From: Candidatus Eisenbacteria bacterium
Lineage (GTDB): Bacteria; Eisenbacteria; RBG-16-71-46; CAIMUX01; VGJL01
Assembly: GCA_016867495.1 (NCBI GenBank)
Contig: VGJL01000012.1
Coordinates: 1-35,900 of the forward strand
Direction of reading: 5' to 3'
DNA length: 35,900 nt
Notes under the pieces: generated by a model
Told to the model about the DNA's origin: nothing
The model's input: only the letters and a program-made list of their open reading frames with translations
Databases searched by the model: none
Shown: in pieces, positions 8,005 to 12,211 of the stretch
How the letters are laid out: each line of letters opens with the position of its first letter
How positions within the stretch are numbered: position 1 is the first letter of the stretch
Made by a program: the position numbers and the translations under genes

Positions 8005-9921
8005 ATGGCGCCGATATTCCCGTTGCCCGCGGGGAAGCCGCGGCTCGATCTGCTCATCCTTCACCCGGCGGGCAGCGATGACCCGCGCCTCGTTTCACTC
8101 TCGATCGGAATCCTCCAGTTCCTTCGCGGCTGGCTGGAGGGCCGGGACGTCACAACGTCGTTCTGGCCGGAAACGACCGTTGACGCGGGGGGGCGCACGC
8201 GCTTCATCCTCCGCCCCATCGCCTGGGCCGAGGACGAGATCGCCCGCAAGAGGAAGCTCGTCCCGTCGGCCCGCGCGATCCTGTTCCTCGATATCGATCA
8301 CTCCATCCCAGCGACGCCTCAGGCGCGGCTTTCCTTGCGATCTCAAACTGCGGATCGCACGGCCTTAACGCCGATTCCGCTCGATGAGGCGGGCGTCTTC
8401 TCCGGCACCGCGCTCACTCTGGACGAGCTGCTTCGTGCCGTGGAGCGGGTCCCGATCGAGAAAGGCCCCGCGGCCATCTTCCACACGCAGGATCATGCGA
8501 CCGCGCTCGCGACGCTCTACGCGCTCGAGAGAATCGTGGCCTTTCAGGCCGGCATCGGACAGGAGGATCCGCAGCGTCTCTTCGAGCCGGCGCTCAATTG
8601 TTTGGCGCGCGATCCGGCGCATCCGATCGGGCGCGACTGCCTCGCGCGCCTCGCGGGGGCCGCCACGGAGACCGGGAAATCGGAGTGCCAGCAGGCGGCC
8701 CGCGACGCGCTGCAGCGGTGGTCCGACATGACTCCCCTGTCGGCCTTTCCCCCCTACTTGCTGGCGATGACGCGCATGCGATCCGGGGCTGCGGAAGAGG
8801 CCAGAGCGTCATTCGAGGAGTCGCTCCGCAGGGACCCGCTCTTTGGACCCGCCCTCGAGCAGTACGCGAACTGGCTGGCGGAGCGGGGCTTCGTCGATCG
8901 GGGCGTCGCGATGCTCCGCAGCGCGGTCGGCCGGACCGACTTCGACGGGAACCTGCTCGATCACGCAGGATGCCTGCTCGCGAACGCGGGACGCCTCGAT
9001 GAAGCGGACCCCCTCTTCCGAGAGGCGGCGTCGGCCGGAGGGCCGCCGACCTCGAGCACGAACCTCACCCGGGCTCTCCTCGCCCGCAACCGCAACGACG
9101 AGGCGCTCGAGGTCCTTCAGCGGAGCATGGCCCGGGGAATCCATCCGATGCAGCTCGAGCTGATGGCCGATCTCGCCGGGCGGTCAGGGATGGCCGCGGC
9201 CGGCGCCCGAGCCATCCTAAGGGGGAGGATCTCGGAGGGCAGCAAGGACGAGACGATCCAGCAGCATCTCACTCAGATCTGCCTCGATCTCGAGGGGCCC
9301 GGGGCGGCGGCCGCGCAGGCGCGCAGATTGCTCGAGATCGCCACGCAGGTGCCGGTCCGGCGTTTCGCCTACCAGGTCTTGTTGCGGAGCCTCATTCCCG
9401 ACTTCGAGGCTCGCTGGAAGCAGGCGATCGAGAACACGTTCGAGGGGGATGCGGAGTCCGCGGTGTCGTTCCTCCGCGAGGTAGTGACGGCGGAGGACGG
9501 CTACGGCACCGCGCACTTCTTCCTGGGAACCGCGCTCGAGCGCCTCGGACGGGCCAAAGAGGCCGTCCCCCACCTGAGGGAGGCCATCGCCTCGGAGGGA
9601 AACGACCCGATCGTGCTCGATGTCCTCGCGCGCGCCTGCGCGGCCGCGGGCGATCTCGAGGACGCGGCGCGGCTCCACCACACGGCCGCTTCCCTCGCGC
9701 CGGGCGATGCCCGGGTCCTGCACAACGCCGCCGTATCCCTCCTTCGCGCGGGCTACTCCGAAGAAGGGATCTCCATCGCGCAGAGCTCGCTCGCCATCCA
9801 GCCCGAGCAGGATGATCTGATCGATCTGCTGAAGAAGAGCCTCCCGCCCAGCCGCAAGAAGGCAGCGAAGCTCGCCGAACATGCGGGGAGGATTCTGAGG
9901 AAGAAGAAACCGCGATCGTGA
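8005..9921 (+). CDS. TPR-repeat protein
   Basis: 638 residues, predicted soluble, with no signal peptide. Residues 1-110 form an unrecognised alpha/beta N-terminal region (PRLDLLILHPAGSDDPRLVSL, RAILFLDIDHSI). From about residue 245 to 620 the sequence is a run of degenerate tetratricopeptide repeats, such as GAAEEARASFEESLRRDP, GRLDEADPLFREAAS and GRAKEAVPHLREAIAS. The C-terminus is Lys-rich. TPR proteins act as scaffolds, and the ligand is unknown. AGGAAG at 7992-7997, 7 nt upstream, supports the start. The stop overlaps the first possible start (GTG 9918) of the kinase remnant, which suggests the two once formed an operon. The 7790-8004 spacer also carries the divergent riboswitch promoter. 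Confidence 0.85.
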   Translation: MAPIFPLPAGKPRLDLLILHPAGSDDPRLVSLSIGILQFLRGWLEGRDVTTSFWPETTVDAGGRTRFILRPIAWAEDEIARKRKLVPSARAILFLDIDHSIPATPQARLSLRSQTADRTALTPIPLDEAGVFSGTALTLDELLRAVERVPIEKGPAAIFHTQDHATALATLYALERIVAFQAGIGQEDPQRLFEPALNCLARDPAHPIGRDCLARLAGAATETGKSECQQAARDALQRWSDMTPLSAFPPYLLAMTRMRSGAAEEARASFEESLRRDPLFGPALEQYANWLAERGFVDRGVAMLRSAVGRTDFDGNLLDHAGCLLANAGRLDEADPLFREAASAGGPPTSSTNLTRALLARNRNDEALEVLQRSMARGIHPMQLELMADLAGRSGMAAAGARAILRGRISEGSKDETIQQHLTQICLDLEGPGAAAAQARRLLEIATQVPVRRFAYQVLLRSLIPDFEARWKQAIENTFEGDAESAVSFLREVVTAEDGYGTAHFFLGTALERLGRAKEAVPHLREAIASEGNDPIVLDVLARACAAAGDLEDAARLHHTAASLAPGDARVLHNAAVSLLRAGYSEEGISIAQSSLAIQPEQDDLIDLLKKSLPPSRKKAAKLAEHAGRILRKKKPRS

Positions 9922-9935
9922 CGGCTGAGGAGCTC

Positions 9936-10184
9936 ATGGGCGACGAGACGATCCACGATCCCCCGGGCCGAAGTGACGATCCGACCATTGCGTCGCCGCC
10001 GGGTCAACCGGCGCCGGCGACCGATCTTCCCCAATCGATCTCAGGCTACCGCATCCTTCGCAAGATCGGCGAAGGCGGGATGGGGATCGTCTATGAGGCC
10101 GAGCGTCTCTTCAGGGAGGCCCTGGCCATGGACGAGCGGATCCTGGGCCGGGACGATCCCGAGATCGCGACGAGCCTCAAGTGA
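9936..10184 (+). pseudogene. Collapsed Ser/Thr protein kinase-TPR gene
   Basis: The 82-residue product starts like a bacterial Ser/Thr kinase: an acidic/Pro-rich leader, then ISGYRILRKIGEGGMGIVYEA, which is the glycine-rich ATP loop. Where the VAxK strand and the rest of the kinase should follow, it jumps into ERLFREALAMDERILGRDDP plus EIATSL, which is the classic TPR motif found at the C-terminus of kinase-TPR fusions. It then stops. The Lys, HRD and DFG motifs are all absent. The junction falls at GAGGCCGAG (10095-10103), which fits both parent modules (VYEAE and EAERLF), so a microhomology deletion is likely. GAGGAG at 9927-9932 precedes the ATG at 9936. An assembly collapse is the alternative explanation. 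Confidence 0.75.
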
Positions 10185-10211: not shown

Positions 10212-10568
10212 TCAGGGCGGATTCAATGATCTCTCTCGCGCCGCGGCCACGGCGAAGGCGTCGAAATACCGCTGGAGAGAGCTCCCGTCAGAACGGTAAG
10301 CGTTCTCACCCACGAAGAAGTCGAGGAGGACCTCGCGGGCCCGCGCGATCTCCCGCAATCTGGCCGCCGACCTTCGGTGACGAGGATCGTCGAGCGTGAG
10401 ATCGATCAGCTCAATCGCGCGCTCGACGGCATCGCTGGAGATCTTCCGGTTCCGCTCCCGCCAGCGCAGGGCCCGACCAACCTCGCTCCCGACGTGGCCC
10501 ATCTGCTCGCACAGGGTGAAGGTGAACCATCGCCCCCGGGCCAGAGACTCGTGCCGGACGGGGCTCAT
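10212..10568 (-). CDS. Small helical protein partnered with DUF5674
   Basis: A 118-residue protein of unknown function, rich in helices and charge (SLARGRWFTFTLCEQMGHVG, ALRWRERNRKISSDAVERAI, ARAREVLLDFFVGENAYRSD, then a short C-terminal helix). The length and layout suggest a helical bundle. The start ATG at 10568 overlaps the stop of the DUF5674 gene by 4 nt (ATGA), so translation is probably coupled. I recall similar proteins beside DUF5674 genes in other uncultured bacteria, but no function is established. A toxin-antitoxin or RNA-processing pair is one possibility, offered as inference only. Confidence 0.7.
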   Translation of the reverse strand: MSPVRHESLARGRWFTFTLCEQMGHVGSEVGRALRWRERNRKISSDAVERAIELIDLTLDDPRHRRSAARLREIARAREVLLDFFVGENAYRSDGSSLQRYFDAFAVAAARERSLNPP

Positions 10569-10912
10569 CGGCGCGCGAGCTGCCGGACGAGGGCCCCAAT
10601 CCTCTCTCGGATCGCCGGATCATCCACGCTCCTGGAGTGGTTGCCCTGAGAGGGTCTGAGGTTGATCATGGAGTCGAACTCGATCCATTCATCGTCTGGC
10701 AATTCTGGATAGAGATTGATCCCCCAGAGATCCTGCTGCCGCGACCCCGTCGCCAAGAGCTCGGCTTCCTCATCCGCATGCAGCTCCGCTCCGACGAGCA
10801 TCACCCCGCGGTCGAGATCGACGACCCCCTTCACAAGACTGCCGAATCGAGCGGAGGCGAGCTGACGCAGGTCCTCGATCGATAGCGGGCTCTGTCGCGT
10901 GACCAGCTTCAT
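10565..10912 (-). CDS. DUF5674 family protein
   Basis: A 115-residue cytosolic protein. It matches the DUF5674 pattern closely: SIEDLRQLASARFGSLVKGV, VDLDRGVMLVGAELHADEEA, a GSRQQDLWGINLYPEL segment and EFDSMINLRPSQGNHSRSV, then a helical end. The family has no known function and is common in metagenome-derived genomes. It is the first gene of a two-gene unit with the 118-residue protein. No Shine-Dalgarno site precedes the ATG at 10912, which instead lies 9 nt downstream of a -10 hexamer, suggesting a leaderless or nearly leaderless message. Confidence 0.85.
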   Translation of the reverse strand: MKLVTRQSPLSIEDLRQLASARFGSLVKGVVDLDRGVMLVGAELHADEEAELLATGSRQQDLWGINLYPELPDDEWIEFDSMINLRPSQGNHSRSVDDPAIRERIGALVRQLARR

Positions 10913-10920
10913 CGCCGGTC

Positions 10921-10950
10921 AGTCTAGCCGCCCCCGCGCCAGCATGGCAA
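10921..10950 (-). promoter_or_regulatory. Promoter of the DUF5674 unit, near-leaderless
   Basis: On the minus strand TTGCCA (10945-10950), an 18-nt spacer and TAGACT (10921-10926) form a plausible sigma-70 promoter. The DUF5674 start codon begins only 9 nt after the -10 box, so transcription would start at or beside the ATG. Confidence 0.5.
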
Positions 10951-11062: not shown

Positions 11063-11091
11063 TTGGAGCCTACCAGAGGATCCCCTACACT
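11063..11091 (+). promoter_or_regulatory. Promoter of the GyrI-like gene
   Basis: TTGGAG (11063-11068), a 17-nt spacer and TACACT (11086-11091) lie 55 nt upstream of the ATG at 11147. This argues against the longer reading frame that would start at 11063, because that would place the start codon in the -35 box. Confidence 0.5.
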
Positions 11092-11146
11092 CGGGGGCGT
11101 CAGTTGTCGGAACATGGGGGCCGGGGCTGCTCACCGGAGGGGACAG

Positions 11147-12211
11147 ATGGCTTCGAGCGAGTTTCCCATGGAGAGGAAGATCCTGCCCGCGACCCTGGCG
11201 GCCGGGGCGCGCAAGGCGCTCAAGGGGCGCGGGGAGATCCGGCCCGCCATCAAGGAGCTGGCCGCTCTGATTCCGCATGACGCGATCACGGGGCCGCCGT
11301 TCTGCCTCCTCCAGTACATCACCGATGTCGAGGGCGCCTATGACATCGATGTCTGTTTTCCGGTCTCGCGGGAGATCGCGGTCGAGGGGCTCTTCTGCAG
11401 GATGGAGCCGGAGCTGGAGGTCCTCGCGCACCTCCACCGGGGACCGACGGAAGGGATCCGGGAAGCCTACCGCGCCCTCCATCGGACCACGGCGGAGCGC
11501 GGGGTCATCTCCGACGAGTTCGGCCGCGAGGTCTATCCGGACTGGGAGACGGCCGACGCCACGGCCGTCGAGGTGCAGTTCGTGGTCCACAGGTGGGAGG
11601 ACTTGTTCGCCCGGCACGCGGAGCGGGTCCTCGGGTCCGAGGCGGCTCGCGATCTGCTCGCGAACCGGCCCGCACCGGGACTCGAGGCGACGGGGGAGGA
11701 ACGCTTCGCCTGGGTGAAGGCTGCCGTCGAGAAGCTCGATCGCGACGCAGGCGATGATCGAACGCACGAGATCCTGACCGGCTGCGCGCACGTCTTCCCC
11801 GACCGGCAGATCGACAGGCTCCGCTCCGTCCATGACGAGGCCATGGAGCGGACGGGCGACCGCGGCCAGGCGATTGATGCCGTGCTCGCCTTTCGGGCCG
11901 CCAATCCACCGTGGAGGGACAGCTCGACGCGCCAAGGCAACGTGGTGATCGCCACCAAACGACCGCGCGACCCGGAGGCGTATGAGAAGGCCGAGACGTC
12001 CGAGGAGAAGCGGCGCGCCTACTGCTTCTGCCCGATCATCCGCGACCGGCTCGGCGAAGGGATGCCCGGGAGCTTCTGCTACTGCGGGGCAGGTTGGGAG
12101 CGCCGGCAATGGACGGGGACTATCGGGGAGCCGGTTCGCGTTCGCGTTCTCCACTCGGTCCTGCGCGGCGATGACGCCTGCAGCTTCGCCATCGAGCTGC
12201 CGGAGGCCTGA
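11147..12211 (+). CDS. GyrI-like effector-binding domain / cysteine-rich domain fusion
   Basis: 354 residues. Residues about 5-155 resemble the GyrI-like/AraC effector-binding (SOUL-type) fold (MERKILPATLAAGARKALKG, GPPFCLLQYITD, YDIDVCFPVSREI, and a C-terminal VEVQFVVHRWEDLF). The C-terminal part is helical and then cysteine-rich, with YCFCPIIRDRL and GSFCYCGAGWERRQW, resembling the family annotated as DUF6144 or L-2-amino-thiazoline-4-carboxylate hydrolase-like. The paired CxC motifs could bind a metal. GyrI-like domains bind small molecules, so this may be a one-protein sensor or a small-molecule hydrolase. GGAGGGG at 11136-11142 supports the ATG at 11147. The next gene starts 27 bp downstream. 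Confidence 0.75.
   Translation: MASSEFPMERKILPATLAAGARKALKGRGEIRPAIKELAALIPHDAITGPPFCLLQYITDVEGAYDIDVCFPVSREIAVEGLFCRMEPELEVLAHLHRGPTEGIREAYRALHRTTAERGVISDEFGREVYPDWETADATAVEVQFVVHRWEDLFARHAERVLGSEAARDLLANRPAPGLEATGEERFAWVKAAVEKLDRDAGDDRTHEILTGCAHVFPDRQIDRLRSVHDEAMERTGDRGQAIDAVLAFRAANPPWRDSSTRQGNVVIATKRPRDPEAYEKAETSEEKRRAYCFCPIIRDRLGEGMPGSFCYCGAGWERRQWTGTIGEPVRVRVLHSVLRGDDACSFAIELPEA

Follow-up and report, generated by a model that had tools for sequence, protein, structure and literature searches.

A widespread two-gene unit encoding DUF5674 and a four-helix protein resembles a toxin–antitoxin module

Type II toxin–antitoxin (TA) systems consist of small, adjacent, co-directional genes that are inherited together, of which the antitoxin gene but not the toxin gene is tolerated alone, and their distribution is patchy and mobile. 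In HigBA, a type II system of the toxin-first kind, the two small genes overlap, and the system is patchy and plasmid-borne, with an antitoxin gene that outlives the toxin gene. In HEPN-MNT modules, a helical protein and an alpha/beta protein are encoded together by a coupled operon. Here, we describe a unit of two small overlapping genes, encoding a DUF5674 protein and a helical partner, that has the adjacency, joint inheritance, one-sided loss and patchy, mobile distribution of type II TA systems and shares with HigBA the toxin-like first gene, the patchy occurrence, the carriage on plasmids and the longer persistence of the antitoxin-like gene. It differs from HigBA in having neither a RelE/HigB-like fold or sequence nor an HTH antitoxin, and from classical type II systems in that the partner has no recognizable DNA-binding domain. 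The Pfam entry for DUF5674, PF18924, names neither a function nor a partner, in agreement with a sequence-only reading of this DNA that had listed the family as without known function, and no paper naming DUF5674 or PF18924 was found in the literature searched. We consider it moderately probable that the unit is an undescribed TA-like addiction module, in which DUF5674 would be the toxin and the helical protein the antitoxin.

The unit lies on the minus strand of the window, i.e., the whole stretch of 35,900 nucleotides that was analyzed, and has the following features:

10565..10912, minus strand: first gene, encoding the 115-aa DUF5674 protein (proposed toxin/enzyme), which matches the PF18924 profile
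10212..10568, minus strand: second gene, encoding the 118-aa helical partner (proposed antitoxin)
10565..10568, minus strand: ATGA overlap of 4 nt, made of the partner start ATG and the DUF5674 stop TGA, read from the sequence
10921..10950, minus strand: weak sigma-70-like motif TTGCCA-18-TAGACT upstream of DUF5674

The first gene matches PF18924 with an E-value of 6.3e-32 and 110.3 bits against a gathering score of 27. Both small ORFs and their overlap are placed as the sequence-only reading had described them, and the ATGA overlap is predicted to couple translation of the partner to that of DUF5674. The same reading had given the pair its own promoter, a claim that fared less well: TTGCCA-18-TAGACT is the sole sigma-70-like match upstream, its −10-like hexamer lies only 9 nt from the DUF5674 ATG, and no Shine–Dalgarno sequence was seen between the motif and this ATG. 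Because the motif is poor and too near the ATG, a private promoter is not established. No convincing terminator candidate was found 3′ of the partner gene. The pair is isolated, as had been proposed, in the sense that the genes on either side have no relation to it and differ between loci. In an empty-site comparison, the window's downstream flanking gene was not found in the nearest genome of the same order. On the plus strand, an 88-aa ORF (9918–10184) adjoins the module. Its sequence resembles the beginning of a serine/threonine kinase domain (GYRILRKIGEGGMGIVYEAE), followed in frame by a TPR_10 end, as if a large kinase–TPR gene had lost its middle and left this remnant. Also on the plus strand, at 11063–12211, is the gene for a 382-aa protein with weak matches only, to GyrI-like and DUF6144 domains, and with distant relatives in the order.

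The pairing of the two genes is far from chance, and they form one conserved unit across many bacterial phyla and cyanobacterial plasmids. A genome-contig scan recovered 572 DUF5674 relatives, of which the best 80, from ∼20 phyla, were retained. Far from being a rare neighbor, the partner is located downstream and on the same strand in all of these 80 best loci, and in 79 of them it is separated by a few dozen bases at most. The remaining locus, L114, has a 900-nt insert between the two genes (874–1758), and this insert carries a small ORF (MSIQQTATFQKVIDVIESLPEHQQESLIDVLQ...) that by eye resembles RelB/ParD-type antitoxins. Of 94 homologous pairs, 69 or more have an overlap of exactly 4 nt, and no natural fusion of DUF5674 and partner was found. 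We also carried out a census of 770 genomes from four groups, i.e., the window's own phylum, Elusimicrobiota, Patescibacteria (here a label applied to the phylum of a Gottesmanbacteria genome) and Omnitrophota. DUF5674 and the window-type partner occur together in 179 genomes, the partner only in 26, DUF5674 only in 46 and neither in 519. Carriage is patchy, at 18/47, 21/150, 96/380 and 90/193 genomes, respectively; the module is mostly single-copy and is found in 44 to 47% of Omnitrophota genomes. In the window's phylum, the partner is present in exactly the same 18 genomes as DUF5674. Among the 46 genomes with DUF5674 only, 34 were inspected, and 33 of these have another short ORF directly downstream, mostly with a 4-nt overlap; these replacement ORFs are mostly alpha-helical-looking and at first sight unrelated to the window-type partner. 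The plasmids of cyanobacteria have the same gene order, with partners of 115 to 124 aa. Because DUF5674 is followed by a short ORF also with other partner types and on these plasmids, the two-gene architecture is general. This near-constant pairing supports the earlier idea of a TA-like two-gene module, and the decay pattern described below further indicates the roles of the two proteins.

The unit spreads horizontally. DUF5674 distances track partner distances (Mantel r 0.61, against a maximum of 0.11 in 1000 permutations) and, therefore, the two genes travel together. In the tree, phyla are mixed in several well-supported groups, e.g., Acidimicrobiia inside Acidobacteriota, and the pair is present on conjugative plasmids. 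At the level of sequence comparison, these data demonstrate movement of the pair between phyla as a unit. The 149 flanking ORFs of 80 loci match 165 Pfam families, none of which is found in more than three proteins; less than half of the loci, most of them closely related, have flanks in common, and no conserved operon with other genes was found. The neighbors of the unit on plasmids include dpdE, N6-methylases, helicases, transposases and TnpB, and a role in mobile addiction or defense fits these neighbors.

Decay of the unit is one-sided. In a damage survey of 29 loci (L120 to L148) on Nostocales and Gloeothece plasmids, both ORFs are intact in 11 and both are damaged in 5. DUF5674 is absent, truncated, frameshifted or stopped next to a whole partner in 12 loci (L126, L127, L130, L131, L133, L134, L135, L137, L139, L140, L145 and L147) and, besides these, its end is clipped by a TnpB element in L138. 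A whole DUF5674 with a damaged partner occurs in 0 of 29 plasmid loci, although the 12:0 asymmetry overstates independence because some loci share ancestry (L126/L127; L135/L145). Similarly, an intact partner with a broken or missing DUF5674 is found in four Elusimicrobiota genomes (G195, G096, G161 and G100) and the reverse state in no genome of this phylum, and intact solo partners are present in many Patescibacteria and Omnitrophota genomes. This comparative evidence points to a one-sided dependency in which the partner survives without DUF5674, as the antitoxin gene does in type II TA systems.

Copies of DUF5674 that lack an intact adjacent partner have lost core residues. K28, D32, H45, E49, G56, S57, Q59, W63, S81, N84, R86, P87 and N91 are conserved across all paired types; among 142 paired homologues, K28, D32, H45, E49, S57, W63, S81, N84, R86 and N91 are near-invariant, and H45 and E49, which are one helical turn apart, are both intact in 140. 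Six loci, mostly divergent members, have no intact adjacent partner, i.e., L015 (same sequence as L049), in which the partner is without its last helix, L275, L279, L281, L285, and L288, in which the partner has an in-frame TAA. In this order, the changes in DUF5674 are H45Q+E49Q+N91D, E49R+Q59P, Q59T, E49Q+Q59V, Q59R+R86H+N91K and E49K+Q59P. E49 is lost in four of these six copies vs. two of 142 paired copies (Fisher p 1e-5). The L015 protein still shares 68% identity with that of the window, yet three core residues are gone. These six cases, a small sample, suggest that DUF5674 without an intact adjacent partner tends to lose otherwise near-invariant residues. The L275 genome has a second, paired DUF5674 copy (L274). 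In L279 and L281, both from Omnitrophota, a DUF5674 subtype is located directly before rsmI, which encodes a 16S rRNA methyltransferase; these two copies are not strictly partnerless because window-type (type I) partners (L325 and L326) are encoded elsewhere in the same genomes, and they are possibly domesticated.

The conserved residue set suggests that DUF5674 is an enzyme, and we regard it as probably a small one; as a guess, these residues would suit a hydrolase that works without a metal, for instance an RNase. The AlphaFold2 model (pLDDT 86) is an alpha/beta protein with the order beta-alpha-beta-beta-alpha-beta-beta-alpha. Its fold has no match with E <1 in the PDB or with E <0.3 among the viral proteins of BFVD, and sequence profiles detected no solved relatives. 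A ferredoxin-like core is hinted at by the beta-alpha-beta-beta-alpha-beta order; no fold match backs this reading.

The partner is a helical protein, as anticipated, and AlphaFold2 models it with high confidence (pLDDT 92) as a bundle of four helices. It is 25 to 73% identical to homologues adjoining DUF5674 in many phyla, belongs to no known family in Pfam, NCBIfam, PHROGs or PADLOC, and has no solved relative in the PDB by sequence profile. A match to capH (E 0.004) was dismissed as noise, and neither family nor fold searches support a ribosome-associated identity. No consistent match to a DNA-binding family was found. The best PDB fold match is the flagellar export chaperone FliS (TM ∼0.5, probability 0.97, E 0.27, which is not significant); the likeness is structural only, i.e., a four-helix bundle of ∼110 aa, whereas identity is 11 to 15% and there is no flagellar context at the pair. 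The sequence-only reading had also suggested comparing the partner with HEPN families, and a HEPN identity is not supported: 92 aligned partners have no conserved RX4-6H motif, and no HEPN structure is present among the 50 best PDB matches listed. The partner is far more variable between subtypes than DUF5674. Profile links between partner types are weak (types II and III, P 3e-4; III and IV, P 3e-3; I and II, P 0.07), and a single sequence, L291, matches both types III and IV; common descent of all partner types is likely on these profile comparisons. Taken together with the general architecture, these weak links show that evolution is much faster in the partner than in DUF5674.

The main rival to the TA-like reading is a non-toxic unit with an accessory cellular function, in which the helical protein would be required by DUF5674, itself an enzyme or a subunit that binds a ligand, either as a second subunit or as a chaperone for folding. 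Heteromers, too, would be compatible with obligate pairing and coupled translation, the closest fold match of the partner, a weak one, is an export chaperone, and a mostly single-copy module that reaches 47% of Omnitrophota genomes is steadier than many TA families. Also counting against a toxin are the absence of a fold match of either protein to a known toxin or antitoxin, the occurrence of DUF5674 and a type I partner at separate sites in two Omnitrophota genomes (L279/L325 and L281/L326) and the lack of viral carriage, with no match for either protein in IMG/VR contigs and none for DUF5674 in phage records. However, a harmless enzyme and its helper explain the intact solo partners less well, because a helper without a client should not persist in the many genomes without DUF5674, and the hypervariable partner, the genomic contexts without a functional theme, the carriage on plasmids and the loss of core residues where no intact partner is adjacent also argue against this explanation, which we regard as unlikely.

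Reversed roles, with the helical protein as a HEPN-like RNase toxin and DUF5674 as the antitoxin, would make the pair similar to HEPN-MNT modules, with which it shares a small helical protein, an alpha/beta protein and a 4-nt overlap. This arrangement is very improbable: an intact partner where DUF5674 is broken or absent would be lethal, the aligned partners have no conserved RX4-6H motif and the fold matches listed include no HEPN structure, DUF5674 matches neither MNT nor other nucleotidyltransferase families, and catalytic-type residues are conserved in DUF5674 and not in the partner. An abortive-infection or anti-phage module, in which phage infection frees DUF5674, is a special case of the TA-like reading. 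On Nostocales plasmids, the pair or a solo partner adjoins dpdE (L143), N6-methylase and DUF1998 genes (L141), helicases (L126, L127 and L130) and SNF2 (L139), and DpdF is found beside one chromosomal copy. Plasmids carry such genes anyway, however; defense families are not enriched among the 149 flanking ORFs of chromosomal copies, and known defense genes rarely adjoin the pair outside cyanobacteria, which also counts against the toxin reading as a whole. This special case is also unlikely in our judgment.

Under the favored TA-like reading, we suggest that the first gene encodes a small alpha/beta protein, most likely an enzyme, with an active site that would include H45 and E49 assisted by K28, D32, S57, W63, S81, N84, R86 and N91. 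The second gene, translated by ATGA coupling, would give rise to a four-helix protein that binds and neutralizes DUF5674, which otherwise would be toxic by acting on its target. More tentatively, DUF5674 may be a toxin with a fold and an active site unlike those of any solved protein, and the helical antitoxins may form one hypervariable superfamily, in which an unchanging toxin core is combined with partner types that are exchanged or remodeled. The unit would then represent a TA class of large size, spread over lineages that have received little study (Omnitrophota, Patescibacteria, Elusimicrobiota and Acidobacteriota) and over plasmids of cyanobacteria. If the TA-like reading is true, it adds a toxin without a known fold relative. 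With a fixed partner, one-sided decay and a candidate active site, two “hypothetical proteins” that occur in 20 to 47% of genomes of some large lineages become a testable system, and plasmids of Nostoc, Anabaena and Trichormus provide cultured hosts of the pair.

These plasmids have additional features. Several Nostocales plasmids have a third conserved gene, of 112 aa, after the partner (L124 3654–3992, L129, L130, L132 and L141), even where DUF5674 has been lost. In Nostoc/Trichormus plasmids, TnpB genes (L138 3281–4504 and L143 2700–3908) are inserted between the two genes or directly behind them. Finally, a plasmid of Calothrix PCC 6303 encodes a second intact partner, of another subtype, after the first and behind a frameshifted DUF5674 (L134 2486–2848).
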